64,000 nucleotides of DNA, taken from positions 1 to 64,000 of the forward strand of contig NZ_AULI01000011.1 in the NCBI RefSeq assembly GCF_000425205.1, read 5' to 3'. The stretch comes from Pontibacillus halophilus JSM 076056 = DSM 19796. GTDB taxonomy: Bacteria; Bacillota; Bacilli; Bacillales; BH030062. The notes beneath the pieces were generated by a model. That model did no database searches. It saw only the letters and a list, made by a program, of their open reading frames with translations, and had not been told where the DNA came from. The position numbers and the translations under genes were made by a program. Positions 4,772 to 56,523 of this stretch are shown here, in pieces; the first letter of the stretch is position 1; the number at the start of each line of letters is the position of its first letter.

Positions 4772-4782
4772 ATGTATTATAG

Positions 4783-4811
4783 TTCACAATTCCCATAATA
4801 ATCGTTAGAAT
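4783..4811 (+). promoter_or_regulatory. Predicted pdxK promoter
   Basis: TTCACA (4783-4788), a 17-bp spacer and TAGAAT (4806-4811), about 50 bases upstream of the chosen pdxK start. Confidence 0.6.
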
Positions 4812-4859
4812 AGGAGAAAGTCTTATAGATTGAGACAGCAGTTGGAAGGGGAATGTTTA

Positions 4860-5684
4860 ATGAGAAAACGCGTACTTACGATTGCTGGTTCCGACAGTAG
4901 TGGCGGAGCTGGCATTCAAGCAGACTTAAAAACCTTCCATGAACATGGCGTTTATGGAATTTCATCTTTAACAACCGTGGTAGCGATGGACCCGACAAAT
5001 GGTTGGGCCCATAATGTGTTCCCAATGGAACTTCATACAGTGAACGAACAGTTAAAAACGGCACTATCCTTAAACTTGGATGCACTAAAAACAGGCATGC
5101 TTGGCTCTCCTGACATTATTGCCCGCGCAGCTGGCGTAATTGAGGAAACAGGTATCCCTGCCGTAATAGATCCTGTTATGGTATGTAAAGGTGAAGACGA
5201 CGTGCTTCATCCAGAGAATTTAGAAAGCCTGAAAGGAACACTCGTTCCAAAGGCTACCATCACAACGCCTAACCTATTCGAAGCAGCGAAACTAGCTGGC
5301 TATCGTCTAATTACAAGCGTTGAAGAACTAGAAGATGCTGCCAAGATCATTCATGAGTCTGGCGCCCAGTATGTACTCATTAAGGCTGGCAAGCTTGTAG
5401 ATGAGACGAAAGCAACCGATCTTCTCTATGATGGTGAACAATTCCATTACCTTCAGACGGACAACTTCGATACGAACAATGTTCACGGAGCAGGTTGCTC
5501 GTATTCCGCTGCGATTACAGCAGAACTTGCGAACGGAAAATCCGTTATGGAAGCTGTGAAATCTGCGAAAGCATTTATCGCAAGCGCCGTGAAAGAAGGT
5601 TTCCCGTTAAATGATTACGTAGGCCCCGTCTACCAAAAGGGCACACACAAAGAAGAAATTGAAGTAAGCGTGACGACGAAATAA
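4860..5684 (+). CDS. pdxK: Pyridoxal/pyridoxine/hydroxymethylpyrimidine kinase (PdxK type)
   Basis: A 274-residue ribokinase-superfamily kinase that phosphorylates B6 vitamers (and possibly HMP) with ATP in the cytoplasm. The N-terminal TIAGSDSSGGAGIQADLKTF is the ThiD/PdxK signature, DPVMVCKG is the conserved mid motif, and HGAGCSYSAAI near residue 210 carries the anion hole and catalytic region. In this subfamily the usual GTGC is HGAGC, as in Bacillus subtilis PdxK, which it resembles along its whole length. The ATG at 4860 is preferred over the one at 4830 because AAGGGGAA lies just upstream. Monocistronic, with its own terminator. Confidence 0.9.
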   Translation: MRKRVLTIAGSDSSGGAGIQADLKTFHEHGVYGISSLTTVVAMDPTNGWAHNVFPMELHTVNEQLKTALSLNLDALKTGMLGSPDIIARAAGVIEETGIPAVIDPVMVCKGEDDVLHPENLESLKGTLVPKATITTPNLFEAAKLAGYRLITSVEELEDAAKIIHESGAQYVLIKAGKLVDETKATDLLYDGEQFHYLQTDNFDTNNVHGAGCSYSAAITAELANGKSVMEAVKSAKAFIASAVKEGFPLNDYVGPVYQKGTHKEEIEVSVTTK

Positions 5685-23300: not shown

Positions 23301-23329
23301 TTGAACCGACATGGAAATAACTGTATGAT
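23301..23329 (+). promoter_or_regulatory. Promoter of the riboswitch operon
   Basis: TTGAAC (23301-23306), a 17-bp spacer and TATGAT (23324-23329), about 20 bp upstream of the aptamer. Confidence 0.85.
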
Positions 23330-23348
23330 AACCTTATCCAATACCCGA

Positions 23349-23417
23349 GCTCGTATAAACTCACAAATAAGGTGTGAGTGTATCTAGTTGGCAACCGTAA
23401 ATAGCCGAACTACGAGT
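23349..23417 (+). promoter_or_regulatory. Purine riboswitch aptamer, guanine class
   Basis: The fold matches the B. subtilis xpt guanine aptamer. P1 pairs CTCGTA (23350-23355) with TACGAG (23411-23416). J1/2 is TAA. P2 is CTCACA/TGTGAG (23360-23378) with the seven-base loop AATAAGG. J2/3 reads GTATCTA, which keeps U47, U49, C50, U51 and A52. P3 closes a loop CCGTAAA identical to xpt, whose CC can pair with the GG of loop 2. The base just before P1's 3' strand is C23410, equivalent to C74, so guanine or hypoxanthine is the expected ligand. P3 has one extra pair and an A-A mismatch compared with xpt. Confidence 0.9.
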
Positions 23418-23465
23418 GAAATGATTCTGTCTAAAGATAGACAGAGTCCTCAATCTGACTTCATT

Positions 23466-23507
23466 GAGGTAGAATTTCACTCCTACAAGTGACTTCTACC
23501 TCTTTTT
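23466..23507 (+). terminator. Riboswitch-controlled terminator
   Basis: GAGGTAGAA pairs with TTCTACCTC, with an inner CACT/AGTG stem, followed by five Ts. Its segment ATTTCACTCCTA (23474-23485) is complementary at 11 of 12 positions to the P1 3' strand and next bases (23411-23422), giving an antiterminator. Ligand binding should lock P1, free the terminator and switch transcription off. Confidence 0.9.
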
Positions 23508-23560
23508 ATTATGTAGAAGGGGCTTTGGAAATCTATTGATTCAAGTAGGAGGTGAATGAA

Positions 23561-24697
23561 GTGAGTGAAGACTTACCTATTTTACGAGAGGGGCTCTATT
23601 TCAACCATGCAGGTGCTGGTCCTATGCTTACCTGTACAGGCAACGAAATCGCGAAAGCATGCATGAAGGAGCAAACTGCCACACGAGCGAATTTACGAAG
23701 TCGTTATTATTTCCAAGAGGAGTTAGACGTTTTGAGAGCTGAGGTGGCGAAGCTAATCCATTGTAGTGCTCACGAGATTGCCATCACGACCAACACAACA
23801 GAAGGAATCAACATCATCTTGAATGGGATGAATCTACCCCCTGGGTCAGAAATTCTAACGTTACGTGGTGAGCATTTCGGTACGAAAGCTAGCATGACGT
23901 CCATTTCGGAACGGAAACAAATACGTATCATTTCATACAGCATCCACGAAGATCACCTCTTTGATGTAGAGGACATCATGACACATATTACGCCCAACAC
24001 AAAGGTGATTCTAGTCTCACACATTATGTATGAGACAGGTAGAATCATTCCTATACGTGAACTAGTCTCCCTTGCCAAGCGATTAAACATCAAGGTCGTT
24101 GTAGATGGAGCGCAAGCTGTCGGCTCTCTTAACGTTGATGTCAAAGCATTAGGTGTAGATGCGTATGTGTTTCCTGCCCATAAATGGCTGTTAGGCCCTG
24201 AGGGCATTGGGTTTCTCTACTGCTCTGAAGCATTCGCACCTTCCGTCTCTCCCACCTATGCGAATACATCGACCTATGATTGGAACGACGAAGGGCCATC
24301 TCTTGTAAAGGGCGCGAGGAAATTTGAAACAGGAACACGTTATCGACCTCTCATCAAAGGGATGATTCAAGGACTGAAATGGATTCAGGCAAGAGGGATA
24401 GCCACAATTCATGATAGAACCTGTATGAATATGTCCCTTATGAAAGAGCTTGTAGGAGAAGCAGGCCTTCCGCTTCTGTCTAACCGCATCCACAACATTG
24501 CATCTGTCATCCTTCCTTCCGACCTTTCTTCTAAGTCATTACGTAAAGAATTAGAGACCGAGCAAATCTTTCTCGAGGACGTCCCACGTTACAATGCCAT
24601 CCGCATATCTGTGAGCTTTCACCATGAGAAACACGAAATGGAAGAACTGGTTCATGCTATTTACAAAAACGTATATCAGGGGGAAACGTATGTCTAA
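23561..24697 (+). CDS. Class V aminotransferase-fold PLP enzyme (cysteine desulfurase/lyase-like)
   Basis: A 378-residue fold-type I PLP enzyme. N-terminal YFNHAGAGP, then TTNTTEGINIILNG, VDGAQAVGSL with the PLP Asp, and VFPAHKWLLGPEGIGFLY, where the His-Lys holds PLP (Lys near 207). It is NifS/SufS/C-DES-like, but the C-terminal active-site cysteine loop of true desulfurases (RxGHHC type) is not visible; that region reads FLEDVPRYNAIRISV. It may therefore be a cysteine/cystine C-S lyase releasing persulfide or sulfide, or an unrelated lyase or epimerase. The GTG at 23561 is eight bases from AGGAGG. First gene after the guanine riboswitch; it overlaps the PP-loop gene. Confidence 0.85.
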   Translation: MSEDLPILREGLYFNHAGAGPMLTCTGNEIAKACMKEQTATRANLRSRYYFQEELDVLRAEVAKLIHCSAHEIAITTNTTEGINIILNGMNLPPGSEILTLRGEHFGTKASMTSISERKQIRIISYSIHEDHLFDVEDIMTHITPNTKVILVSHIMYETGRIIPIRELVSLAKRLNIKVVVDGAQAVGSLNVDVKALGVDAYVFPAHKWLLGPEGIGFLYCSEAFAPSVSPTYANTSTYDWNDEGPSLVKGARKFETGTRYRPLIKGMIQGLKWIQARGIATIHDRTCMNMSLMKELVGEAGLPLLSNRIHNIASVILPSDLSSKSLRKELETEQIFLEDVPRYNAIRISVSFHHEKHEMEELVHAIYKNVYQGETYV

Positions 24698-25385
24698 TAA
24701 AGTTGCTGTTCTATTTACTGGTGGTCGTGATTCTTCTTTAGTTGCTTGTCTTGAGGCATTACAAGGACGAGAGGTTCATTTGTTAACGTGCAACAGCGGC
24801 ATTGGAATCGGAAGTGAACTCTCTCAAATTCGGGTCGATCAACTTATGGATAAGTTCCCGAACGAAATCAAAGGAAGGACTATACTTCCTACATACGGAT
24901 TGTTTAGAAGTATTGCGATTGAACATCTGGAAGAGGATTTTAGGCGCTTTGGAATCAACCTCGTATTACTAGGTGACAAATTAGCCATTCATGCAGCAGC
25001 AACTGTCTACTGTCTCCAGAACGGGATTACACGAATCGTAGATGGATGTGTAGGCTATCAAGAGGACCTCGCCGAACAGAAAGAAGCATCAATTGAGCTG
25101 TTGAAAGACTTTGAACGTCAGTACGGCATAGACTACGAATCTCCAATTTACCATTACGGTTCTCAGGATGACGTCAAGTACGCCTTGCTGACACTTGGTC
25201 TCTCATCCAAATCACTTGAAGGTGTATCCATTTTCGGCGATGCCTTCAGCGAGCCGACGAATGAACAAGTAACTGAATACATTACAGGTAAACTCCCTAT
25301 TTGCGAGAATCACATTGAGTGGATGACCAATACGGCAAGCCTTGTTGAGCGGACCAAGTATGTGTCCCCTAAATTAACTGTATAA
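24690..25385 (+). CDS. PP-loop ATPase (adenine nucleotide alpha-hydrolase fold), QueC/thiolase-like
   Basis: A 231-residue N-type ATP pyrophosphatase. The PP-loop is TGGRDS (10-15), a variant of SGGxDS. Such enzymes adenylate a carbonyl and then insert N or S (GuaA, QueC, MnmA, TtuA). It is not a clear member of any of these: no QueC zinc site of four clustered Cys is seen, although single cysteines occur near residues 20, 35 and 120 (VDGCVGYQEDL). It starts inside the end of the PLP gene, so the two are translationally coupled, which suggests that the PLP enzyme feeds it sulfur. The guanine riboswitch upstream points to a purine substrate. Function inferred, not shown. Confidence 0.8.
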   Translation: MSNKVAVLFTGGRDSSLVACLEALQGREVHLLTCNSGIGIGSELSQIRVDQLMDKFPNEIKGRTILPTYGLFRSIAIEHLEEDFRRFGINLVLLGDKLAIHAAATVYCLQNGITRIVDGCVGYQEDLAEQKEASIELLKDFERQYGIDYESPIYHYGSQDDVKYALLTLGLSSKSLEGVSIFGDAFSEPTNEQVTEYITGKLPICENHIEWMTNTASLVERTKYVSPKLTV

Positions 25386-25396
25386 GGAGTAAATCT

Positions 25397-25789
25397 ATGA
25401 TTACTAAAATCGGTGCAGCCATCATAAACGAAGGAAAATTACTTGTCGTGAGCAAGAAAAAACATCCAGATCAATACATGCTACCAGGTGGGAAACCTGA
25501 AAATGGAGAAAACGAAATTGGAACGCTTAAGAGGGAATTGTTTGAGGAATTGCAAATAGAGGTGACTTCTCATGAGAAACTAGGAACCTACCGAACTACC
25601 TCCATGTTCGATGACGAGGAATTGCACTTAACTGTCTATTTAACTGAGATTGAGGGCCAACCCACGCCATCATCTGAAATTGATGCTTTCCAATGGATTT
25701 CCATTGAAGATGAGGAGGCTTGTGCTGATTTTGGTAGCGGCATTCGTCACTTTACCCTGCCTCTATTAAGAGAAAGAATGTCTTCATGA
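25397..25789 (+). CDS. NUDIX hydrolase
   Basis: A 130-residue NUDIX protein. The Nudix box is present as G-x5-E-x7-REL-x-EEL within GKPENGENEIGTLKRELFEE (about 34-53), with the metal-binding Glu residues intact. Such enzymes cut nucleoside diphosphates linked to another group, often removing abnormal nucleotides. In this operon it could hydrolyse a modified purine nucleoside triphosphate. AAGGAGT ribosome site; its stop overlaps the next start (ATGATG). Confidence 0.88.
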   Translation: MITKIGAAIINEGKLLVVSKKKHPDQYMLPGGKPENGENEIGTLKRELFEELQIEVTSHEKLGTYRTTSMFDDEELHLTVYLTEIEGQPTPSSEIDAFQWISIEDEEACADFGSGIRHFTLPLLRERMSS

Positions 25790-26709
25790 TGTCCCGATTA
25801 AATCTTGGCACAACTTTTGCTCTATTGGCTGGTGTGACCTACGGAGTTAATTCGATCATTGTGAAACAGGCTCACAATCTAGGAGTGTCAACGTTTGACC
25901 TTCTGTTCTACCAATTCTTCTTCGCTACTCTTTACTTTGGCGTAAAGTCCATACAAGCTAGAGCTAAACAAGGGTACGAACGAGAACCCATTTCACTCTT
26001 ATTCAAGAGTCCCTTTAACTGGATTGCAGCGATCACAGCCGTTTCGACTGGTTTGCTTTATTATTCTTCAATTCAATTAACGGACCCAAGCGTTGCATCA
26101 CTCGGCCTATTTCAGTACCCTTGGATTTTATTTCTACTCGGCATTTGGCTAGACAAAGAAGCGTTCACAAATAAGAAAGGCCTCTCCATTCTTCTGTTGT
26201 GGCTCGGCTCTCTATTGTTGATTGGCAGTTCTCTTTCTTCCCTAAAGGGGCTTGGTCTCCTTTACGGTGTGGCAGCGGGCGCTTCATTTGCCGTCTATTT
26301 ATTCAGCCTTAAGAAGATCACAGCTCATATCCATACTAAGCTGTTTATTACACTCATCAGTTTGATTGGAGCTCTCTTTGTATGCCTAGTAAACATTGAG
26401 CATTTGTCCATTTTCTCCGTAGAAGCACTCACCTTTGGACTTTTGGCAGCGATGCTCGGTCAAATTCTGACCTTTGAGTTGACCATCGCTGCAGCGAAGA
26501 AAATCCCATCCGGTATGCTAGGAGTGTTCACATCGACGGAATTACCTGTAGCCATGCTGCTTACGTGGATCATCTGGGGGCCCTTCCCTACATTAGGGAA
26601 GCTGTCAGGTTTAACGCTTATGTTCCTGGCAATCGTGTGGATGAACATACAAGACCAACCAATTAAACAACCTGCAAATTCCGACGTCAACCTTCAAACC
26701 CATCAATAG
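25786..26709 (+). CDS. EamA/DMT-family exporter
   Basis: A 307-residue membrane protein with ten predicted helices in two EamA repeats. LAGVTYGVNSIIVKQA opens the first half; LLYGVAAGASFAVYLFSLKKI and ELPVAMLLTWIIWGPFP are in the second. DMT proteins commonly export amino acids, purines or toxic metabolites. Its place in the riboswitch operon suggests export of the operon's product or of a purine. A second ATG at 25789 is also possible as start. Confidence 0.87.
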   Translation: MMSRLNLGTTFALLAGVTYGVNSIIVKQAHNLGVSTFDLLFYQFFFATLYFGVKSIQARAKQGYEREPISLLFKSPFNWIAAITAVSTGLLYYSSIQLTDPSVASLGLFQYPWILFLLGIWLDKEAFTNKKGLSILLLWLGSLLLIGSSLSSLKGLGLLYGVAAGASFAVYLFSLKKITAHIHTKLFITLISLIGALFVCLVNIEHLSIFSVEALTFGLLAAMLGQILTFELTIAAAKKIPSGMLGVFTSTELPVAMLLTWIIWGPFPTLGKLSGLTLMFLAIVWMNIQDQPIKQPANSDVNLQTHQ

Positions 26710-26724
26710 GGAGGGACTGTTCAG

Positions 26725-27447
26725 ATGAAACCTTTGCTCCTGTTTGATTTAGATAACACATTGTTTCCGTTTAGACAGTATTGGGAGGAGGCAAACCGAA
26801 CCACGTTCACTTCCTCCCCCCTTACAAATGGACTTTCATATGATGCGTTCCTTCCTTTATTAAAGATGTTCGATGAAGAACTATGGCCGCTTCATGTAAA
26901 GGAAGCAATCACACTAAATGAGTTGCGTGTAGAACGGTTTATACGAACGATGCATGCGTTAGGTCGCTCCGTCAATAAAGAGCAATCTCAGCACTACTTC
27001 GAAGCGTTTATGGAGAATTTGCTAAGTAGCATTACAATGGATGAAGAATTACGAGACTTTCTAGACAAACTTCAGCAATCGTATACGCTTGCTATATTAA
27101 CGAATGGAAAGGAGAAAGAGCAGTGGCGGAAAATCATTCAATTGAACCTCACTAGTGTAATTCCGTTCGAACACATCTTCATCTCTGAAGACATTGGGTA
27201 TGACAAACCAGACCCACGAGCCTTTCAGCATGTATTAAAGACGTTAAACGTCGAAGCTCGTTCTGCTACCTATATCGGTGACTCGTGGACCCATGATATA
27301 CAAGGCTCCATCGGGGTAGGCATGAATGCCATTTGGATTACACCGAGACAGGCGTCCTCCATTAACGAAAACTTGCATCTATCTAGAACAATCTACGACA
27401 TTGAACCGTGTTTATTTCATCTCAATCGTACAACTACGATCACATAG
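26725..27447 (+). CDS. HAD-superfamily phosphatase (YjjG-like nucleotidase)
   Basis: A 240-residue haloacid-dehalogenase-like hydrolase. Motif I is LLFDLDNTLF (nucleophile Asp), motif II LTNGKEKE, motif III Lys within YDKPDPRAF and motif IV YIGDSWTHDI. The long helical cap is of the YjjG/YfnB type, a group that dephosphorylates nucleoside monophosphates, including non-canonical ones. In this operon it could free a modified nucleotide before export. GGGAGGGAC precedes the ATG. Last gene of the operon. Confidence 0.86.
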   Translation: MKPLLLFDLDNTLFPFRQYWEEANRTTFTSSPLTNGLSYDAFLPLLKMFDEELWPLHVKEAITLNELRVERFIRTMHALGRSVNKEQSQHYFEAFMENLLSSITMDEELRDFLDKLQQSYTLAILTNGKEKEQWRKIIQLNLTSVIPFEHIFISEDIGYDKPDPRAFQHVLKTLNVEARSATYIGDSWTHDIQGSIGVGMNAIWITPRQASSINENLHLSRTIYDIEPCLFHLNRTTTIT

Positions 27448-27486: not shown

Positions 27487-29199
27487 CTAATCATTTAATC
27501 CTTCGATTGTCATCTCTTCAACTGTCCCCGTACCGTTATCTCGAATTCTTGCTTTCATCTCAACTGAATCTCCCTCTTTCAAGAAGATAGCAAGCGGTGC
27601 CTTACTCGTATTAACAGTGTAGATGGTTGTATCTCCATCTAGAAGGAACTGAACAGATTGTCTTGCTTCTGTTGACGTAACAAGGACACGGCTAATGGTA
27701 CCGTTCTTCTCTGTTAGTTCGGTGCCTTCACTTCCTTCTACGTTACTCGGGTCTTGCGCTAAGGCGAGGCGATACGCGTTCAACGTTTGCTTCGCAGTTT
27801 CACCGAATACGACAAAGTCAGAGTCAGAAGCTTTAATATAGGCATATTGCTTAAATAGACCATTCGGGTCAAGTACGTTCACAATCCATGTAGGATGTCC
27901 ATCGACGTTATAAAGGACTGGCATCGAACCGGTCCAGTTCTTCTCTGGATACTCCTTATTGACGATTTGCTTCGCCCCTTTACTATCCATAATGCCATTG
28001 TTCTGCTTTCCATTGTAGTACGTTAACTCACCTGTTCTAGCATTGATGAGCGTGTAGCCAAGTGCAGAATCAATGTTCTCTTTCGGTGAGGCCATGTCAG
28101 TAAAGTAGAACATCTCGCCTGCTTCATTAAAGATTGGTGTAACAGAGCTTTCCGTACCCGATTCGTTCGGGATCTTCACATCTTTCTTACCAAAGATGGA
28201 GTTTAGCCATCCGTTTACGTATTGACCAAAGTAATTGTTCTCTGTAGCAGCGAGCTCTGAACTTACAGAACCTTCGATAAAGTCTGGTGCTTCGCCTGAT
28301 TCATACGATTTCACATCCCCATTCTCTGGGTCTACTACTGCCACTTTGATGTTCTGAAGGTCTGGTTGATTGGAGAAAGGCAATGGTTTGTAAATGGTCT
28401 GTACATACCAAGGCTTTCCGTCGTCGTCCAATTCGATTTGGGCGTCGCCACTCTGAATATGATCAGGGTGAGCTGCGTACACAACTCGTTTTACGTTCTG
28501 GTTAAAGTAGCTTGAGTTTGTATAGCGCATTTTACTTTCAATGAAATCTGGCTGAGCGTTAATGTTTGTTGCTGGGATAGAGAAATACCCCTCCGTCTCT
28601 CCCCCGCGTAAATAACGCCAGAAGTTAGCAAATTCAACAGGTGCGACATACACAATTTCTCCATCTACTCGCTGAGCCTGTAATTTCCCTAGGTCATAGA
28701 ATTGTGTGTTTGGCACAACACTCATGGCCTTTTGAACTTTGTTACGAGCCGATTCAGGCGCAACGGATATTGGTGTGTTCTCTTCATTTAATGGCTTCGC
28801 TTCTTCTTCCTCCTGTTTTGGAATGGAATCATAGGAGTCGCCTAAAGCGAAGAAGTTGTACACAAACATCCCTACAAATGAAAGCGCGACAAGAATGATT
28901 AACACTCCCGTCAATGAGCGGTGTAGGGTCTGGTACTGAACATTAATTCGAGAACCTACATAGAGAAGTGGCGTTAATAACAGAGCCACAACGGTATTTA
29001 GTAGAAGTAGGTTCGGCATCGTCATGACAGGCATGAACACATACACAATGACGAACATTAAGATAAGTCCGATAATCAATAAAGTTAATGAATTTTGAAT
29101 CAGCGCTTTACGTCGTAACGCATTTTTCATAATGGCAACTACGGCCAATACGGCAAATAAGACGAACGATAGCGCTGCTGTCGTAAGCATTCCTAGCAT
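27487..29199 (-). CDS. Membrane protein with large extracytoplasmic domain, function unknown
   Basis: A 570-residue protein not assigned to a known family. Four hydrophobic helices lie within the first 125 residues, followed by an acidic linker and then a domain of about 430 residues that should face outside. That domain is beta rich, with repeated phrases of the kind 'DGKPWYVQTIYKPL', 'AGEMFYFTDMASP' and 'DGHPTWIVNVLDP', suggesting three or more repeated beta modules that resemble PepSY-like units. A last segment near 500-570 looks like an OB-type beta domain. No enzyme motif is visible. Single gene with its own promoter region. Confidence 0.75.
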   Translation of the reverse strand: MLGMLTTAALSFVLFAVLAVVAIMKNALRRKALIQNSLTLLIIGLILMFVIVYVFMPVMTMPNLLLLNTVVALLLTPLLYVGSRINVQYQTLHRSLTGVLIILVALSFVGMFVYNFFALGDSYDSIPKQEEEEAKPLNEENTPISVAPESARNKVQKAMSVVPNTQFYDLGKLQAQRVDGEIVYVAPVEFANFWRYLRGGETEGYFSIPATNINAQPDFIESKMRYTNSSYFNQNVKRVVYAAHPDHIQSGDAQIELDDDGKPWYVQTIYKPLPFSNQPDLQNIKVAVVDPENGDVKSYESGEAPDFIEGSVSSELAATENNYFGQYVNGWLNSIFGKKDVKIPNESGTESSVTPIFNEAGEMFYFTDMASPKENIDSALGYTLINARTGELTYYNGKQNNGIMDSKGAKQIVNKEYPEKNWTGSMPVLYNVDGHPTWIVNVLDPNGLFKQYAYIKASDSDFVVFGETAKQTLNAYRLALAQDPSNVEGSEGTELTEKNGTISRVLVTSTEARQSVQFLLDGDTTIYTVNTSKAPLAIFLKEGDSVEMKARIRDNGTGTVEEMTIEGLND

Positions 29200-47272: not shown

Positions 47273-47764
47273 TTAAGATTGGTTCGATGATGGATTCGAC
47301 ATCCTCGCCCAAGCAACTAAGACAAAGATGAGGCCGACAATGCAAACCACGGCAAGACTCCCAATCAAAAGGGACATGGAGAACGCAGATGTTTCTGTCT
47401 CCTCTGTTTCTACAAGAGTGACACTTCTTCTCACATCCACCTCACTAGAGAACAACTGTAAATTGTCTGCTTTTGATGTGATCGTATTTGTCTCCTCAGA
47501 GGAGTACGATTGAAACAATTCGCGCTCGACTTCCTTTTCATTAAAGGTCTTCTCTCCACCGAAATTCAATGCTTTTTGCTCTTCAGGAATGGAATAGGTA
47601 GGCTGATTCGTATCATCACCTATTGGCTTGTTCTTCCGCTCCTTTGATTTATTCTGCTCATATTCATTAGGAGTCAAGTCCTCACTTTGAATAGACGCTT
47701 CAATAGGTTGAGCAACGCCGAGCCAAAGAATAATGAGGCAAAGAACAACTGCTCTACGCTTCAT
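47273..47764 (-). CDS. essA: Type VII secretion protein EssA
   Basis: A 163-residue membrane protein, last gene of the type VII locus. A signal-like N-terminal helix (about 5-22), an outward acidic/Asn-rich region and a second helix (about 130-153) give the EssA/YueC topology. The ATG at 47764 overlaps the end of esaA by 11 bases, which suggests translational coupling; an earlier start lacks support. Assigned mainly from position and topology, as the family is poorly conserved. Confidence 0.8.
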   Translation of the reverse strand: MKRRAVVLCLIILWLGVAQPIEASIQSEDLTPNEYEQNKSKERKNKPIGDDTNQPTYSIPEEQKALNFGGEKTFNEKEVERELFQSYSSEETNTITSKADNLQLFSSEVDVRRSVTLVETEETETSAFSMSLLIGSLAVVCIVGLIFVLVAWARMSNPSSNQS

Positions 47765-50700
47765 AAGCTTCTGACTCTGAAGAAGTCTCTCCACGGTTGT
47801 TTAACCAAATGTCCAATAGAAGCAAGCCTATAACGAGCACACCCATGACGACTAACGCTTGATTAAACAAGGAGTTCGTCCCGTACTGAATGGAGATATA
47901 GACCGCTGACATCGGGTCTTCAAAGTTAAAGTTCGGTGTAGTCAATGCCAATAGTGGGGTTACATAGAAGGCAACCAACATGACAGAAATAAGCCACCCA
48001 ACCATATGATTTAGAAGAAAGGCTACACGCACGAGTCCTGCACTTACTAGAAGCAAGAGAATGGTAATGACTGCCCATTCAATCGTGTCGTTGGAGCTTA
48101 ATGCATAAATATCTAACCCAAATAAACTAATCGTGAAACCAACAATTAAGTTTAATAGCAAGAACACCACACCTTGAATCCAATATGGAGCTGCTTTAAG
48201 GCTGTACGTGGCATACCCAATCATCAAACTGCTTAGCATGATAATGACCAGAATGACAACAGGTGGTACTTGCTTATCCTCTTTCTCTGCGGGCACGGAA
48301 CCACTAATTTGAAGAGGATTGGCTAGAAATTCGTACACTTGACCGTTAGACTGACCATCTACAAACGTATTTCCCAACACAGCAAATACATCGTCACGAA
48401 TTAGCTCGGTAGAGTCTACATTATTGGACCATTGACGATTTAATTCGTTCGCGTCGGATTGAACTTCAGTCACTTTCGCTTGGAGGTCATCGGTATACGA
48501 ACGTACCTGGTCCTGTGTCTCATTAATCGATTCAAGAGAACCTTGTAGGTCCGCCATATATTGACTGACTTGTTGCTGTTCGCTTACAACTGCCGTGCCT
48601 TCCGCACCTGTAGGCGGAGTTGGTGTCGTCCCATTCATCCCCTGTTCAGGCTGCTGAATTTGCGCGAGTACATTTGAAGCATCCTCTTGGACAGCAACTA
48701 AATTGGTTTGGAGCTGTTGTTGACTTTCATCCATTGTTGTCGTGTATTCTGCTAGAAAGACAGTAAAGGAATCTTCCATGGAATTTAGTGCGTCCTCGGT
48801 ATTAGGAAGACGGTCTCCGAGCTGACTCCACTGAGTCCCCTCTTCATCTGTCACCGATAATATGGATTGAACTTCATCTTGGAATTGTTCGTTCTTTAGA
48901 ACTTCTTGTTTAATATCCCCATAATTCATCATTCTGTTTAACGTGGCTTCATAACGTTCGAGTGTTGCAAAGTACTCTAACACATCGTTGAAGTTCCGTT
49001 CTGTAATTTCACGGCTGAAGAACGGCGCCAGTCGATCTGCTCGGCTTTTCGACAACGCTCTTGAATTAAGGATAGCTTGTTCTTTCTCGTCAATCTTTGC
49101 CACGATATCAACAAGCTCATCTGAGAACATGGTCAGTTCTTCTCGGAGCTCCTTATTCTGATCCCTAACAAGCTCAATTTCTTCTTTCAAGTCGTCGTTG
49201 GCTTTCGTTAACTCATTAATGATTTTCTCTAGTTCACTCTTCTCATCGATTAAGAGCCGGTTCGAAGATTGAAGCTTCGATTTTTCACTCTTCAGAGTGG
49301 AGATGTTCGAGTTTAACTCCTTCGTGCGGGATTGAAGAGCTTCAAGCTCGTCTAACAGTGGGTTCTCGCCACTTTCTTTCTCTTTAAGCTTCTGAACAAC
49401 TGCATCTAAACGCGTGTTTACTTGTGTAATGGTCTCAGTTAACGTAGTGATCTCGTCTTCTGTTACATCTGGAAACTGTGTGAGCAACGTCTGAACTGAT
49501 GTTAATTCATCGATAATGGAAATTAATTCAGCTTGTTCTTCAGCTAAATCAGGTGGAGCTGGAACATTCTCATTGCCCGGTGGGTCTCCATCTCCATCAG
49601 ATGCGCCGTTGTCATCTGATGGATCGTCTTCTCCCTCATCGCCCTGTCCATCTTCAGGGGGGTCTTCCCCATCACTCGGAGGGACGGTCGGTTCTTCTTT
49701 GTCTTCCCTCTCTTCAATCGGGTCTGGAATAGAAGGGAGATACTCCCCATCTCCATCTGTTAAATTCGCATTAAGCGTATAGACTTCTTTCTCCAAGTCA
49801 TTTAATGTGGTCGTGCTCTGCAATTGTTGATAGAAGTCAATCATTCTAGATTGATAATCGTACAGCTGGGTTGCTTGTGTTTCCACAATCGTATAACGGT
49901 CTTGTTGCAAGTCTTGATAGAGCTGCTGATTCTGAACTGTTTCACTTTGCATATTCACCATATCATCAATAAATGATGTGCCTTGTTCTTCAAAGAACGT
50001 TTCGAGCTGGCTAAAGCGAGGCTGTTGATTCTCTGTAACAGTTGAGATATTCTCAACCGTCTCCGATTGAATCTCAGCTAACAGTTGTTGTTGATTTTGT
50101 TGATAGGTTCGATACTGTTCTACATACTCAACGAAATTTGACAAGTTCTGTTCGAGAGCCTCCATAGAGCTATCACCAGTTGGTGTAGTACTGGAAGCTT
50201 GCTCTACAGAGTTTTGAAGAGCGGACAACAATCCTCGCTGCTCTTCAATCTCCCCTGCTAAATCCTTCGAGCTCGGCTGATAGAAGGAAATCATCGCTTG
50301 TTGAAACGCTTCTTCCTTCTCTAAGATTTCATCAAATTCTTGGCGTATATTCTCCATATCAGAGGACACATACTGCCAATAAAGAGAAGATAGCTCTCCG
50401 TTCACTCGTTGTGTCCCTTCCTCGATAGCAAGGAGAACACGCTCTTTATTCGCAGCGTTAAGCTGACTTTGTACGGTATAAGCTAACTCCGTTTTGGTCG
50501 GCTGGCTATCATCATAAGACATCACTTTGTCAGAGAAGTCAGAGGGGATGTACACGATGGCATCATAACGCAAGTTGCTTAGTCCATTCTCTGCTGCACT
50601 TCTTCCCACTACAGTCCACTCGAAGTTTGACTGTTCTTCTAGAAGCGGGGTGATCTCTTCTCCAAATTTGATTTGTGAGGCTGTGTCTTTAGTACCCGCG

Positions 50701-50846
50701 TCTTCGTTAACAACAGCAATCGTCTTGGTTGCATTCTCCGTTACCTTCAATGGATTCTCCCCTACTGTTCCAAAGAAGAGAAGGGGCATACTTAGTATGA
50801 TTAATATCAGGATGACGAGCTTTGCAACCCCTCTTTTTCCTGTCAT
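47754..50846 (-). CDS. esaA: Type VII secretion protein EsaA (YueB-like)
   Basis: A 1030-residue membrane protein. One N-terminal helix (about 8-27), a very long outward region with coiled-coil stretches (about 130-360 and 430-600), and five to six C-terminal helices (about 865-1020). This is the EsaA/YueB plan; in B. subtilis YueB is the receptor of phage SPP1. A low-complexity Asp/Glu/Pro/Gly segment near 370-440 (such as DGEDPPEDGQGDEGEDDPSD) is unusually acidic and may suit a salty habitat. It overlaps essC by four bases. Confidence 0.9.
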   Translation of the reverse strand: MTGKRGVAKLVILILIILSMPLLFFGTVGENPLKVTENATKTIAVVNEDAGTKDTASQIKFGEEITPLLEEQSNFEWTVVGRSAAENGLSNLRYDAIVYIPSDFSDKVMSYDDSQPTKTELAYTVQSQLNAANKERVLLAIEEGTQRVNGELSSLYWQYVSSDMENIRQEFDEILEKEEAFQQAMISFYQPSSKDLAGEIEEQRGLLSALQNSVEQASSTTPTGDSSMEALEQNLSNFVEYVEQYRTYQQNQQQLLAEIQSETVENISTVTENQQPRFSQLETFFEEQGTSFIDDMVNMQSETVQNQQLYQDLQQDRYTIVETQATQLYDYQSRMIDFYQQLQSTTTLNDLEKEVYTLNANLTDGDGEYLPSIPDPIEEREDKEEPTVPPSDGEDPPEDGQGDEGEDDPSDDNGASDGDGDPPGNENVPAPPDLAEEQAELISIIDELTSVQTLLTQFPDVTEDEITTLTETITQVNTRLDAVVQKLKEKESGENPLLDELEALQSRTKELNSNISTLKSEKSKLQSSNRLLIDEKSELEKIINELTKANDDLKEEIELVRDQNKELREELTMFSDELVDIVAKIDEKEQAILNSRALSKSRADRLAPFFSREITERNFNDVLEYFATLERYEATLNRMMNYGDIKQEVLKNEQFQDEVQSILSVTDEEGTQWSQLGDRLPNTEDALNSMEDSFTVFLAEYTTTMDESQQQLQTNLVAVQEDASNVLAQIQQPEQGMNGTTPTPPTGAEGTAVVSEQQQVSQYMADLQGSLESINETQDQVRSYTDDLQAKVTEVQSDANELNRQWSNNVDSTELIRDDVFAVLGNTFVDGQSNGQVYEFLANPLQISGSVPAEKEDKQVPPVVILVIIMLSSLMIGYATYSLKAAPYWIQGVVFLLLNLIVGFTISLFGLDIYALSSNDTIEWAVITILLLLVSAGLVRVAFLLNHMVGWLISVMLVAFYVTPLLALTTPNFNFEDPMSAVYISIQYGTNSLFNQALVVMGVLVIGLLLLDIWLNNRGETSSESEAYEA

Positions 50847-53800
50847 GAGAAGACCTCCCTTTCTGCTGATACGAGCGGGATTTGGAACTTCCGCTCTTTG
50901 CCATTCTCCACATAATACCCATATCCGGGGTGAATTTCTGGTTCTTTACGTTCATATGAAAGTGTAAACAACGTTTGATCCGATTTCTTCATGAGTAAAA
51001 GGGCTTGTCGAACTTGCTTTAATTCAACGGTTAGCGGTTCAAATCCTTTCGTCACCTCATTATTGGCTCCGCTGACGACAAGGTGGAACCCTAAATGACT
51101 TTTGTTCTTCATCATAGAGACGAGACGGTTCTGAGTCGTATTATCGAGCATTTGTAGAAATCGTCCATACCCATCAATTAAGAATACAATGGGCTCAAAT
51201 TGTGGACGCTCTCCACTTTGAATAAGCTGTTCATGCATAGCTTCCCGTTCTCTTAAACGTTCCTCTAGTCGGTCAATGGAGGACATGATGGCGTCTTTAG
51301 ATTCTAAATAGGTCACTCCGTCAAGTTCCGCATAATGGGACATGCCCCTATCTACTGAGTCAAAGAGCACAAGTTCGTGTCCTTCTCGGTTGAGAATAGA
51401 CTTTGCGATGACTTGAAGTACATTCGATTTTCCTTTTTGTGCTTGTCCAATGACGAGACAATGCTTCTCCCTAGCGAAACTTACGTGCACGGGTTTTACA
51501 GTTTCTTCATCTAACCCAATTGGGTATCCTGAGTCCTCCGTCGTGGACACGTAGTGCGGGAAGTTGTCCATTGTTAGTTCGGATGGCAACATCGGAACCG
51601 ACACCGGAGTCTTCATACCGTCGTATGCTTTCTTCAGTGCGTCAATATCTTGTTGAAGCTGTTCCATTTGCTCCATATCGTCTTCTCCTTGTGTTGGCAA
51701 GTAGACTTGTGAGAAGTGGACATCTTCCTTCTTCACAATCGCACGTCCTGGAATGGCTTCAGGCGCGAATGGAAGGCGGCCAAGCATACTGTATGCCTCA
51801 GTCGAATCCAGCAAGTAATGAACAACTTTAGTCTTCAGATTATTCGCAAGCGACTGGCGGACAGAGTTCACACGAGTTGCCGTCATCATCACGTAGATTC
51901 CTAAAGATTGACCGTCTCGCGCAAATTGGTTAAACGTCGCCTCCAAGTCCTGCATTTCTTCCTTTACGATGTCAAAGTTATCAATGACTAAATAGGTAAA
52001 TGGAAGTGATTCTTCACTTACACGGTTATACATGGCTATCGAGCTTACTTCTGCACGTTGGAACAACTGCTTTCTTCGACGGATTTCATCTTTAAGAAGG
52101 TCCATAAACTTGTTCACCTTACGCTCTTGGTCTAACAAGAAATAATCCCCTGTGTGAGGAAGCTGTTTTGTCTTCAACAGTCCTCCATTCCCAAAGTCAA
52201 ACACATAGAAGTGAAGCTGCTCCGGTGAATAATTCGTCGCCATGCCCATCATGAGAGTGAGTGCGGTCGTTGTCTTCCCATATCCAGACGACCCAAATAT
52301 ACCGATGTTCCCACTGCTACCCACATCATAATAAAATGGCTTCTGCGCCTGCTTCTCAGGCTCATCCAATAACGCAAATGGAATTTGCGGCTGTGATGGA
52401 GAATGGTAGTCGTGGCGACTAAGTCGATTTGGAAGTGGAGGTAGCCATGGACTTGATAATTTCTTAAGACCCATCTGCTCCTCTGTCGCTTGAATTCGGT
52501 CTACTACGGCTTCAATTTCACTTACGCTGTCACTACGTCGTGCCTCACCAGATGAGACTTCTGATAGAGGAACAAGTCCCCCATCCGTCACGAGCGCAAT
52601 CTCGTCTTCAATCGATGATGACTCTTCTTGATATGGAGCACCACTCCATGCGGACTGGAATAAGTCATACACCTCGTTATTCCCGACCTGTAGATACCCC
52701 CGCCCCGTGACGGTTAATGAAGCTGCGTCTGCATTTTGAATAATCTCACGACTGTCCTCAGCATTTTGTACCTTGAGCGCTACACGGAAACGAGCGTTAC
52801 TCCAGATTTGATTATCAATCACGCCTCCCGGTTTTTGAGTAGCTAAGATCAAATGAACACCGAGGCTTCGTCCGATTCTAGCAGCACTTACCAACTCCTT
52901 AATGAAATCAGGCTCCTCGCTTTTCAGCTCGGCAAATTCATCGGATATGAGGAACAGGTGTGGCATCGGCTCCGTCGCTTCTCCCTGCTTGTACAAATGC
53001 ATGTAATCATTAATGTGATTAACTTGATACTCATCAAAGAGACGCTGACGCCGTTTTAATTCACTGTTAATGGACGCTAGTGCGCGGGTGCTAAAGTTTT
53101 GGCTGCCTTCAATATTCGTAATCGTCCCAAGTAGATGCGGCATTGTCTTAAATGGCTGCGCCATTCCGCCACCTTTATAGTCAATTAACAGAAAGGCCAC
53201 TTCATGTGGGTGAAAGTGAACAGCGAGCGACAGAATATACGTCTGGAGAAATTCACTCTTCCCTGAACCAGTGGTTCCTGCAAGTAACCCATGAGGGCCG
53301 TGCGCTTTCTCATGCAGGTTCAGTTCGACGTAATCTTCTTTTCCTTTCAATCCAATTGGAACTGCTAATGACTTAGCCGTTTCCCGAGTCGTCCAATTCG
53401 ACTCGATTGGAATCTCGTTTACATCCGATACGTTTAACATCTCTAAGAACGAGACAGAATCAGGGATTGAATTCGTCATCCCTACTTGGTGATGCAACGT
53501 GCGGAGCAGTCTCGCATAATCCTCATTGTGGGATTGTTCGTGAGTATCGAGTTCGAATGGAATCCGCACAGCCTTCTTCTCCTGAATGAGAATGTCCCCT
53601 TCATCTGGATTAATATAGCGAACTAGTGTATGTACGTTATCTGAAAGACTCTCCTTCGCTTCCGCACCAAAGATGACAGACATGCCTAAATGCGAAGATT
53701 CTCCCTCCAAATATTCTAAAATGACGTGATCTGAGATCAGCTGATGATTCGTTACAATAAATACAAAATGAGGTGAAAAGCGAAGCTTCTCTTTGTCTTC

Positions 53801-55300
53801 CTCAAGATCTCGTTCTCGAATCATTTCATAGATGGAAGATAGAAGTTGGTCACGACTCTGCTCATTATAGATAAAGCCTTTCGCATAGGAATTTGGAAGC
53901 TGAAAATGAGGGAGCCATTTCATCCATTCCCACTCTCCATATTCCTCTTCCTCAAATATAAAGACGAAGCGGACATCATGATAGCTATGAAAGAAAGCAA
54001 GTTGTCCAATCATTTGGTGTAGTTCATTCTTATACACTCGCTCTTTCCCAATAAGTCCAATAGCACCTTGGAACAAATTGACCGTGACTGGCATTCGATC
54101 TACATTCTTATAAATCGATTGTAAATGTTGTGATTGTTCCAATAGTTCATCAATCTCTCGATTCGCCATATCAGCTGACTGCACAGAAAGCTTGTAGCTC
54201 GCCGGCACTTCTCCAATCCCAATTCGATACTGCAAGAAATCAGGGCTCTCAAGCGTCCGCTCCCATAGTCGGTCTGACACCTGGCTCGTCATGTATTTCA
54301 TACGTTCGAAAGTGGGGTAATGGAAGGTCATGACCTCACGTTGCTTATCGGCTAAGTCCTGCAATTCGACCCGCTTTGTTTCCAAATACTGTGTGTATAC
54401 ACGTTTCCGACGCTTCTTCTCTTCTTTGGATTTTTTCTTGTCTTTGAAATATTGCACGGTTGAAGTAATCAACGTTGTGGTAAACATGACAATGGACACA
54501 ATGATGAAGATTCCTCTTGGAATCAGTAACGCCACGAGTCCCATCACAATTAACATCATGAGTGGTGGCAGAATAATTAGCCAAAGACTACGCCCCGATT
54601 GCCTCGATTCCTGGCTCGGAAAGGAGAACTGAACCTCATCGTTAGGTGGTTCATATACCATTCTTGGCGTACGGCGATACATGGGGTACTTCTTCTCCAT
54701 CTCAGACTGAGGGACTTTGGTTCGTTGTAAGGAAGTCGGGGTCTCTTCCTTTGATTGAACTTGTAATAAGTCTTCTTCAATGAATGTCCATACAGTCCCA
54801 TTTACAAAGCAAACATCCCCAACATGAACAATACAGGACTCTTCTACGATCGCTCCGTTCACATATAGGAATAGCCCCTGTGGCTTTACCTTCCATCCTG
54901 TTGGATGACGTTCTACTTCTACTTGCCCTTCTTCACGGAATGGATAAATCGGTAAAGTTACTTCTCCACCCTCCGTAGATAAGGTGAATTGTTGATGTGT
55001 TCCGACATAGAACGTTTCCGTAATAGGGGCTGATGATGTAAAGAGAAACGTTACATCTATTGAGCCAATCGTGACTGACGTTACCTCATTTGGAGGAATC
55101 GATACGAATGGACGCTCGTCTTTCAATAATTCCAGTTCACCGTTAGTCGAATGAACACGTAGCTCCTGCTCCTTTAGGTTTACGCCACTTAACGTAACCG
55201 TGTCTTGCACTCGATTTCCAATCGTCATCGTTCGTTCTTCTTGATGAGAGAGTTTAATAGATTGATAGGTATTGTCGTGAAATACCCATAAGGTGTTCAT
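50843..55300 (-). CDS. essC: Type VII secretion FtsK/SpoIIIE ATPase EssC
   Basis: The motor of the secretion system, 1485 residues. Two FHA-like domains (about 1-190), two membrane helices (about 230-285), then three ATPase modules with P-loops GTTGSGKS (near 673), GSSGYGKT (near 1003) and GQAQKGKS (near 1285). Walker B is complete in module 1 (LFLISDEFAEL) and altered in modules 2 and 3 (YLVIDNFDI, VFLIDGYGRFL), as is usual. The ATG at 55300 (MNTLWVFHDN) matches family N-termini and has GGCGGTG upstream; the ATG at 55339, overlapping essB's stop, is the alternative. Confidence 0.95.
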   Translation of the reverse strand: MNTLWVFHDNTYQSIKLSHQEERTMTIGNRVQDTVTLSGVNLKEQELRVHSTNGELELLKDERPFVSIPPNEVTSVTIGSIDVTFLFTSSAPITETFYVGTHQQFTLSTEGGEVTLPIYPFREEGQVEVERHPTGWKVKPQGLFLYVNGAIVEESCIVHVGDVCFVNGTVWTFIEEDLLQVQSKEETPTSLQRTKVPQSEMEKKYPMYRRTPRMVYEPPNDEVQFSFPSQESRQSGRSLWLIILPPLMMLIVMGLVALLIPRGIFIIVSIVMFTTTLITSTVQYFKDKKKSKEEKKRRKRVYTQYLETKRVELQDLADKQREVMTFHYPTFERMKYMTSQVSDRLWERTLESPDFLQYRIGIGEVPASYKLSVQSADMANREIDELLEQSQHLQSIYKNVDRMPVTVNLFQGAIGLIGKERVYKNELHQMIGQLAFFHSYHDVRFVFIFEEEEYGEWEWMKWLPHFQLPNSYAKGFIYNEQSRDQLLSSIYEMIRERDLEEDKEKLRFSPHFVFIVTNHQLISDHVILEYLEGESSHLGMSVIFGAEAKESLSDNVHTLVRYINPDEGDILIQEKKAVRIPFELDTHEQSHNEDYARLLRTLHHQVGMTNSIPDSVSFLEMLNVSDVNEIPIESNWTTRETAKSLAVPIGLKGKEDYVELNLHEKAHGPHGLLAGTTGSGKSEFLQTYILSLAVHFHPHEVAFLLIDYKGGGMAQPFKTMPHLLGTITNIEGSQNFSTRALASINSELKRRQRLFDEYQVNHINDYMHLYKQGEATEPMPHLFLISDEFAELKSEEPDFIKELVSAARIGRSLGVHLILATQKPGGVIDNQIWSNARFRVALKVQNAEDSREIIQNADAASLTVTGRGYLQVGNNEVYDLFQSAWSGAPYQEESSSIEDEIALVTDGGLVPLSEVSSGEARRSDSVSEIEAVVDRIQATEEQMGLKKLSSPWLPPLPNRLSRHDYHSPSQPQIPFALLDEPEKQAQKPFYYDVGSSGNIGIFGSSGYGKTTTALTLMMGMATNYSPEQLHFYVFDFGNGGLLKTKQLPHTGDYFLLDQERKVNKFMDLLKDEIRRRKQLFQRAEVSSIAMYNRVSEESLPFTYLVIDNFDIVKEEMQDLEATFNQFARDGQSLGIYVMMTATRVNSVRQSLANNLKTKVVHYLLDSTEAYSMLGRLPFAPEAIPGRAIVKKEDVHFSQVYLPTQGEDDMEQMEQLQQDIDALKKAYDGMKTPVSVPMLPSELTMDNFPHYVSTTEDSGYPIGLDEETVKPVHVSFAREKHCLVIGQAQKGKSNVLQVIAKSILNREGHELVLFDSVDRGMSHYAELDGVTYLESKDAIMSSIDRLEERLREREAMHEQLIQSGERPQFEPIVFLIDGYGRFLQMLDNTTQNRLVSMMKNKSHLGFHLVVSGANNEVTKGFEPLTVELKQVRQALLLMKKSDQTLFTLSYERKEPEIHPGYGYYVENGKERKFQIPLVSAEREVFS

Positions 55301-55338
55301 GCTGTCACCGCCTCTTTCAATCGGTTTCCACTCATCCA

Positions 55339-56523
55339 TTATGAGTTTGTTCCTTCATTTTCTTCTTGTTCTTCTCGTTCTTCTTCATAATCCTTCAGCT
55401 CACGTTCAATCTCATCAAGCTCTTGTTTTCTTTCCTCACTACTCAAATCCCGGTTCGCTTTTACCTGTTCTCGATACTTTAATAGACCGAACATGATTAA
55501 ATCTCTGTCTTCAAGAAAGCGAGCTACCTCTAAAGCTTCTTCTGCCTGCCCCCTGCCAATTTGAATCCAGTACTCATAATAATCAGGGTCAGATTGCAAT
55601 GACACGCTGTTCATGACCGTTTCCTTCTGGTCTTCTGTTAGCGACTCATTGGTTATGTAAGATACGGCTAGCTCATATTGACTCACCTTTGGAATTCGCT
55701 CAATTGGATAAGGTTGCAATGCAGTGACAACTTCACTGTACTCATCCTTAAGAAAGCTTTCCTGCGCTGCTACAATTTGGTCTTGCTTCGGCTGAAGAAA
55801 GAATAGGGAGTAAATGCTGTACACCATAACAGGCAAGAGAATAATGGACACACCGAGCAACGCGAACCGATTTGTTTTCCATTTCTTATGAGTGACTTGA
55901 ATATAACTTGACTCCTGTTGACGCAAGTCCTCTATTCTGTTCTCAAGGATTTCGATTAGTTGCTGAAACGTCTTCGCTTCGACAACCTTCTGTGCCAGAT
56001 CAGACAATTTAAGCGTTTCATAGAAACGTAAATATTGAATAAAGGAATACGCCGGAGCTACAAGTGCAGCTACAAGTGCTCGTGTTTCATAAAGCAGTTG
56101 TTCGTTATCTCGTTCGTACGGAGGAAGACTCTCTTTTACTCCGTAATGAAGTAAATAAGGCTTTAACCCACGGTCAAACACCATATTCTCTGGACTTACA
56201 ATTGGGTGGAGTCTACGAATAGAATGCCCCTCAACCTCTTTCACAAGTCGATAAGCACTCATGGCACGTTCCTTCTCCCCCTCCTTAAGGACATGCTGGA
56301 AACGAACATAGGACTGAGGGACAACATGCTCAATCGAGACATCATCTTCTCCCATTTTGATTGTCTTCTTTATATGTGGATGAAGATCACGAAGCACATG
56401 TACTTCCTCTAATTCGTCCATTTTCACCTTCTCTTGTTGAAACTGAAAGGTGATGACCGATGCTTCCTCATGAATCTCCGCTTCTAATTGCTCCTCTAAA
56501 TACGTTCGTTCATCTTGTGACAT
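55339..56523 (-). CDS. essB: Type VII secretion protein EssB (YukC-like)
   Basis: A 394-residue membrane protein. The N-terminal cytoplasmic half (about 1-210) is a pseudokinase-like domain, followed by one membrane helix (about 225-245) and an outward helical domain with a Glu-rich end. The end is a coiled-coil of alternating Glu and Arg. The ATG at 56523 lies eight bases from AAGGAGC; the GTG at 56541 has none. It anchors EssC in the machine. Confidence 0.93.
   Translation of the reverse strand: MSQDERTYLEEQLEAEIHEEASVITFQFQQEKVKMDELEEVHVLRDLHPHIKKTIKMGEDDVSIEHVVPQSYVRFQHVLKEGEKERAMSAYRLVKEVEGHSIRRLHPIVSPENMVFDRGLKPYLLHYGVKESLPPYERDNEQLLYETRALVAALVAPAYSFIQYLRFYETLKLSDLAQKVVEAKTFQQLIEILENRIEDLRQQESSYIQVTHKKWKTNRFALLGVSIILLPVMVYSIYSLFFLQPKQDQIVAAQESFLKDEYSEVVTALQPYPIERIPKVSQYELAVSYITNESLTEDQKETVMNSVSLQSDPDYYEYWIQIGRGQAEEALEVARFLEDRDLIMFGLLKYREQVKANRDLSSEERKQELDEIERELKDYEEEREEQEENEGTNS

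Follow-up and report, generated by a model that had tools for sequence, protein, structure and literature searches.

A tgs-type operon, probably for 6-thioguanine synthesis and export, behind a predicted guanine-class riboswitch in Pontibacillus halophilus

The operon and its relation to tgsABCDEF

We analysed a 64,000-nucleotide stretch of Pontibacillus halophilus JSM 076056 = DSM 19796 (GCF_000425205.1, NZ_AULI01000011.1, positions 1–64,000; hereafter the window), in which a leader and five co-directional genes occupy positions 23301–27447 of the forward strand. The list of open reading frames (ORFs) and domain searches identify a class V enzyme dependent on pyridoxal phosphate (PLP), a PP-loop ATPase, a NUDIX hydrolase, an EamA/DMT transporter and a HAD phosphatase, arranged as follows:

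23301..23329 (+): promoter-like TTGAAC-17-TATGAT, directly 5′ of the aptamer; 9 of 12 positions match
23331..23432 (+): purine riboswitch aptamer RF00167; 73.5 bits, E 3.8e-11
23414..23482 (+): antiterminator, 23414–23422 paired with 23474–23482; rival to P1 and terminator
23466..23507 (+): intrinsic terminator of the riboswitch; stem 23466–23502, then Us to 23507
23561..24697 (+): tgsA-like PLP enzyme, class V fold, C-DES-like; 35% to S. chromogenes TgsA; putative sulfur donor
24690..25385 (+): tgsB-like PP-loop ATPase; 76.5% to S. chromogenes TgsB; putative guanine (nucleotide) thiolase
25397..25789 (+): tgsC-like NUDIX hydrolase; 47% to TgsC; putative thio-nucleotide pyrophosphatase
25786..26709 (+): tgsD-like EamA/DMT exporter; 43% to TgsD; putative role in efflux and self-protection
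26725..27447 (+): tgsF-like HAD phosphatase (YjjG/YfnB-like); 43% to TgsF; putative thio-nucleotide phosphatase

Intergenic gaps do not exceed 15 bases, the value between the EamA and HAD genes, which have no gene between them; the PP-loop gene overlaps the PLP gene by 8 bases and the EamA gene overlaps the NUDIX gene by 4. This agrees with an earlier note on this DNA, made from the sequence alone, which had described a tightly packed five-gene operon with its first two genes overlapping. A GTG at 23552 opens the same frame as the PLP gene but overlaps the GGAGG.

In Staphylococcus chromogenes the synthesis of 6-thioguanine depends on an operon of six genes, tgsA–F, encoding PLP, PP-loop, NUDIX, membrane efflux, second NUDIX and HAD proteins, and the operon, described by Chin et al. 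2021 for S. chromogenes and S. epidermidis, yields 6-thioguanine when cloned into S. aureus RN4220 (PMC7994395). The P. halophilus genes stand in the order tgsA-B-C-D-F of S. chromogenes, as judged from its plasmid locus and from Table 1 of PMC7994395. The PP-loop protein is 76.5% identical to the S. chromogenes plasmid TgsB over 96% of the protein (E 2e-111) and 74.7% identical to that of S. epidermidis, and the remaining proteins are 35% (TgsA, 129/367), 47% (TgsC, 59/125), 43% (TgsD, 123/289) and 43% (TgsF, 88/204) identical to their S. chromogenes counterparts. The plasmid comes from strain DSM 20454, which we take to be the same type strain as the published producer ATCC 43764. The designation “DSM” is not printed in PMC7994395. 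Gene order and homology thus strongly support the thiopurine product that the earlier note had suggested, and taken with the leader they point very probably to a tgs-type operon for 6-thioguanine synthesis and export under a guanine-class transcriptional OFF riboswitch.

The match to the staphylococcal operons extends to gene order and protein families; they differ in possessing tgsE, in carrying a PurBox-like pair where P. halophilus has a guanine-class riboswitch, and in lying, at the loci compared, on plasmids. The operon has no tgsE, the second NUDIX gene (the rest of the genome was not searched for a copy), and its one NUDIX protein matches TgsC (E 2e-39), not TgsE (E 0.053); the operon is therefore tgs-type rather than a full tgsA–F. 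The missing gene, together with the low identities of the four proteins other than TgsB, would also suit a TgsA–F set retuned towards a related thiopurine, such as 6-thioguanosine, a thio-nucleotide or thioinosine. Such a product is improbable, given how closely the presumed thiolating enzyme resembles that of the 6-thioguanine producer and how naturally a guanine product goes with a guanine-class aptamer in control.

The PP-loop protein carries a TGGRDS motif, and its C108 and C205 are invariant in all eight aligned rows. In a tree of 11 TgsB rows it groups among them, paired with the protein of Peribacillus asahii (support 93/98, below the mark of 95). MnmA, ThiI, TtuA and TtcA belong to the fold family (PMC6225789), and TgsB has been likened to TtuA (PMC7994395), so that a housekeeping tRNA-thiolation enzyme or QueC, within an operon for purine salvage, might be considered. 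This alternative is very hard to sustain, because the gene is rare (one copy in its own genome, one of nine family genomes, three clear matches among 397 order genomes) and because its best NCBIfam match reaches 23.4 bits against a cut-off of 207. The family profile matches the solved PP-loop protein 9kq6 at 3.9e-87 and QueC only at E 0.044, in the N-terminal part only, which also speaks against the 7-deazapurine-like route that the earlier note had listed as an option. Entries 9kq6, 9kq7, 9kq9, 9kqd and 9w3p of the Protein Data Bank (PDB; five entries, 70 chains) hold the structure of a TgsB-family protein of 234 residues that bears no label but “Asparagine synthetase domain-containing protein”, and a literature search under the identifier 9KQ6 gave no paper describing the structure. 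AlphaFold modelling gave mean predicted local distance difference test scores of 53.4 for the PLP protein (from a 2-row alignment) and 53.2 for the PP-loop protein (from 4 rows), too poor for a fold search.

The PLP protein, called NifS-like in the earlier note, does belong to PLP class V but is not a clean NifS. TgsA is labelled a cysteine desulfurase in Table 1 of PMC7994395; the loop bearing the catalytic cysteine is absent from all four aligned TgsA proteins, whereas the four other class V enzymes of the P. halophilus genome that match best have it, and we rejected a NifS/SufS identity for want of that cysteine on the C-terminal loop. Of a SufS profile, only 60–311 of 403 is matched. Among solved structures the closest are those of the L-cysteine/cystine C-S lyase C-DES (1elq, E 8.8e-38, residues 5–363, K208 aligned; also 1n2t); the next chains, of SufS/CsdB type at about 1e-25, cover residues 53–293 only, and the weaker desulfurase chains 7tlq and 8ztp reach residue 367. 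By near full-length match, PLP lysine and missing Cys loop, the protein appears to resemble best a C-DES-type cysteine/cystine C-S lyase. From the missing loop and the nearest solved relative we infer sulfur release without a protein persulfide, which puts the “cysteine desulfurase” label of TgsA in question. For the Erwinia protein YcfC, too, a review describes a distant relationship to desulfurases and to carbon-sulfur lyases (PMC6225789). At the other end of the operon, the HAD protein resembles YjjG/YfnB, as the earlier note had proposed for YjjG, although it scores 118.3 bits, below the family cut-off of 159.9.

The Erwinia 6-thioguanine cluster, which had served the earlier note as its model, has a related arrangement that, to judge from a Vibrio plasmid, is more distant than the staphylococcal tgs operon. 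Its layout is taken from the YcfA and YcfB domains named in PMC7994395, and plasmid pSNUTY1 of Vibrio coralliilyticus (L006) stood in for the E. amylovora sequence. This ycfABCD-type plasmid locus brings together PP-loop, NUDIX, HAD and EamA proteins with a DUF6024 protein that aligned as PLP-like; it differs from the P. halophilus operon in that its PP-loop protein is 45–47% identical, its NUDIX domain is fused to a Hydrolase_3-type HAD, and its gene order is another. The minimal Erwinia set is given differently by two sources: YcfA and YcfB are necessary and sufficient according to PMC7994395, whereas a review citing Litomska 2018 states that formation of the 6-thio product, in vivo as well as in vitro, needs YcfC (PLP) together with YcfA (PP-loop) (PMC6225789).

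The leader and its aptamer

The leader is a predicted guanine-class purine riboswitch with a plausible antiterminator and terminator. Its aptamer, RF00167, is the sole Rfam match in the 64-kb window at gathering threshold (37 bits for this family), which bears out the guanine-class aptamer and terminator that the earlier note had placed before the operon. RNA 23345–23490 folds as an antiterminator in which GAGUGAAAU (23414–23422) pairs with AUUUCACUC (23474–23482) (−44.3 kcal/mol, z-score −4.34, 0 of 200 shuffles equally stable), and the longer RNA 23345–23512 folds as P1 plus terminator (z −4.65, 0/200). The terminator hairpin is equally distinct when folded alone (−17.8 kcal/mol, z −4.83, 0/200), and also forms when the leader is folded without the aptamer. 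Antiterminator and terminator draw on shared bases and so compete, as they do in transcriptional switches of the ligand-OFF type. On its own the aptamer folds less distinctly (z −1.85, with 10 of 200 shuffles equally stable), so the aptamer call depends on the covariance match. Promoter-like TTGAAC-17-TATGAT sites are no commoner in the stretch than chance would give (1 found, 1.5 expected), so only the position of this one speaks for a promoter.

In numbering that we take to correspond to that of xpt, U47 is at 23381, A48 at 23382, U51 at 23385, G53 at 23387 and C74 at 23410. The covariance alignment retains U47, U51, C74, G37, G38, C60, C61, a perfect seven-pair P2 and most of P3, with U54-A72 in place of the consensus C54-G72, and marks two non-standard pairs. 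The aptamer thus bears the marks of the guanine subclass (C74, U47, U51 and a score above the RF00167 gathering threshold) and shares architecture and OFF-type platform with the xpt-type guanine riboswitch; it differs from that type by G53 and A48 in junction J2/3 and by the unusual genes it regulates. Among 37 loci compared, 34 could be read by pattern (L015, L045 and L063 were unmatched and dropped): position 53 is G in the operon aptamer only and C in the 33 others, and position 48, U or C in those others, is A in the operon aptamer. Under the pattern any base could stand at positions 48 and 53, but 47, 51 and 74 were restricted to pyrimidines, so counts at those three are no free test; furthermore, 30 of the 37 loci are high-scoring, one per genome, from a 61-genome sample, and the set leans to consensus-like aptamers.

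The A23-G46-C53 triple, part of the ligand pocket, is reported as fully conserved in the sequences analysed (PMC3764141) and is not kept here. The leader thus offers a naturally altered pocket in a model riboswitch; it may be decayed, may sense guanine weakly or even normally, or may have changed its ligand. Decay would leave an aptamer without useful binding and an operon set by its promoter and a partly constitutive terminator; beside the lost triple, the modest fold and the non-standard pairs, it would account for the score, which is the lowest of the seven purine riboswitches in the genome (73.5 against 82.7–86.9 bits). Decay would be expected to reach the retained bases named above, P2, P3 and the platform too, and since those bases and P2 are kept along with most of P3, and the antiterminator/terminator pair is complete, we consider it rather unlikely. 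Of the other six riboswitches, five adjoin purine genes (xpt-pbuX, NCS2 permeases, purE and a nucleoside transporter, from ORFs read by eye without family search); the remaining one (L017) precedes guaA, to judge by position alone. A re-tuned pocket, with G53 and A48 reading the compound that the operon makes, or else a thio-guanine intermediate, so that the leader would act as a self-poison sensor with product feedback in place of guanine, is a long shot. In the one relevant study found that deals with guanine riboswitches and also mentions 6-thioguanine, the compound was used as a growth inhibitor, and its action was ascribed to incorporation, not to the riboswitch (PMC2858708).

Candidate purine control and gene content at other tgs loci

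We compared ten Bacillota tgs loci: the P. halophilus window, two staphylococcal plasmids (S. chromogenes, L002; S. epidermidis, L004), a chromosome-sized Staphylococcus contig (L026), P. asahii (L007), an Alicyclobacillus acidoterrestris plasmid (L005), Halalkalibacter alkalisediminis (L008), Bacillus solitudinis (L009), L075 and L076. Only P. halophilus has a purine aptamer. None was found at the nine other loci even at permissive thresholds (E up to 5 for six, up to 1 for three), nor, at gathering threshold, on a second S. chromogenes plasmid (L003) or the Vibrio plasmid. The gene set recurs without the riboswitch, so of the conserved riboswitch–gene linkage whose absence the earlier note had named as counting against its proposal, only the gene-set half is seen; conservation gives the linkage no support, which comes instead from the covariance match, the platform and the position.

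Two staphylococcal loci carry another candidate signal. Published PurR boxes are 14-bp elements with a central CGAA and a spacer of 16–17 bp (PMC8789054), and a CGAA...TTCG pair with this spacing lies before tgsA of S. chromogenes L002, upstream of 3828, matching 23 of 26 positions (0 of 20,000 shuffles as good, 51 with any core pair). At S. epidermidis L004 a PurBox-like pair upstream of 3858, also before tgsA, matches 21/26 (4 of 20,000 as good, 124 with any core pair), and the positive control upstream of P. halophilus purE gave 20/26. The scan used an assumed consensus, the L002 pair was seen by eye first so that its shuffle test is after the fact, and L003, which shares an identical TgsB with L002, was left out. 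No pair was found in the window, L005, L006, L007, L008, L009 or L026 at a core spacing of 30–31, nor in L005, L007, L008, L009, L075 or L076 at 26–35; both cores are altered in L026. Thus 6-thioguanine operons seem to have come under purine-linked control on at least two occasions, through a riboswitch in P. halophilus and through putative PurR boxes in staphylococci.

The discoverers of tgs left the regulation of 6-thioguanine synthesis open for S. capitis (PMC7994395, Discussion). The text of that paper has none of “riboswitch”, “PurBox” or “promoter”, and “PurR” in its reference list only; an open-access search, made largely by abstract and with most subscription papers outside it, found no report linking a riboswitch or PurR to 6-thioguanine synthesis. 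For one lineage the P. halophilus locus would offer an answer open to direct test; for staphylococci the PurBox-like pairs suggest a different one.

The loci fall into three layouts: A–F at the two named staphylococcal loci, A-B-C-D-F in P. halophilus and P. asahii, and B-C-D-F at four loci of the G348 family. P. asahii has the same five genes, also without tgsE in the operon and with a TgsB 82% identical to that of P. halophilus, and differs in having neither an Rfam purine riboswitch nor a PurBox pair upstream. The tgsBCDF loci L008, L009, L075 and L076 keep the order PP-loop, NUDIX, EamA, HAD and, unlike P. halophilus, have no adjoining tgsA and no riboswitch; no tgsA-like stretch fell below E 0.06 in their flanking DNA, the rest of these genomes not having been searched. 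The Alicyclobacillus plasmid L005 has the same four genes in that order, also without a riboswitch, behind a C-terminal tgsA remnant at 4777–4971 (55 residues, 31% to P. asahii TgsA, E 2e-7). From the four loci without adjoining tgsA and the one remnant it follows that TgsA is not universal. Tgs-type operons are nonetheless extended beyond staphylococci to several Bacillaceae and Alicyclobacillus. Two of the loci have features of their own: group II intron matches lie at L009 5573–6195, upstream of the B. solitudinis tgsBCDF genes, and in L026 the tgsD frame is split and the start of the tgsA frame is not open; this contig also has, after the tgs locus, rpsF- and ssb-like ORFs (read by eye).

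Clear tgsB genes are rare. In overlapping samples, of which the first four include the P. halophilus genome, they occur in 1/9 genomes of its own family, 3/397 of the order (a fourth match, E 7.2e-4, set aside), 3/398 of the class and 1/398 of the phylum (matches at E 9.1e-5 and 6.3e-4 set aside), as well as in 2/84 Staphylococcus genomes, 1/43 of the P. asahii family and 4/41 of the G348 family. The weak PP-loop matches thus left out, in genomes G154, G916 and G1088 (E 9e-5 to 7e-4), were judged not to be orthologues. Five of 72,556 plasmid records carry tgsB relatives. Rarity, plasmid carriage and scattered occurrence suggest that tgs loci have spread horizontally.

Proposed working of the operon, and its surroundings

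Aptamer, alternative folds, gene identity and gene order are computed here, and 6-thioguanine production has been demonstrated by others for the homologous cluster; from these we infer the product in P. halophilus, the ligand and the individual reaction steps. The PLP enzyme would free sulfur from cysteine or cystine, and the PP-loop ATPase would activate the C6 carbonyl of a guanine nucleotide, probably guanosine monophosphate, and insert the sulfur there. NUDIX and HAD proteins would strip phosphates from thio-nucleotides, for trimming and clean-up, and the EamA protein would export the product. With guanine plentiful, P1 would close, the terminator form and the operon fall silent; with guanine scarce, the antiterminator would form and the operon be read. 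A reason for such an OFF switch could be that base and mimic compete and, more speculatively, that a guanine-short cell may gain by harming purine-scavenging neighbours. If true, an RNA that senses the mimicked molecule itself would control the antimetabolite operon, which suggests how the making of a dangerous purine look-alike is kept in step with the cell's purine supply.

Several of the results above weigh against a 6-thioguanine operon under guanine control: on the gene side, the 35–47% identities of TgsA, C, D and F, the lack of tgsE, the loci without a complete tgsA and the discordant accounts of the Erwinia minimum; on the leader side, the lost triple, the modest aptamer fold, which may indicate a weak switch, and the missing riboswitch at the nine other loci.

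The G+C content of the operon (0.42–0.44) lies within that of its surroundings (0.40–0.47). To its right, at 27487–29199, a 570-residue protein without Pfam match at 1e-8 is encoded convergently with the operon and has no match in eight family relatives. A recent insertion at the site was tried as an explanation and set aside, as the G+C content is not distinct and synteny is not judgeable with this neighbour unmatched. Prophage or virus origin was likewise rejected: no relative was confirmed in viral_contigs (39 pattern matches) and none in phages. Elsewhere in the window, at 47754–55339, a 1498-residue FtsK/SpoIIIE protein with an FtsK_SpoIIIE_N domain, which we take to be EssC-like, adjoins a 1030-residue protein without Pfam match at 1e-8; this is possibly a type VII secretion locus.

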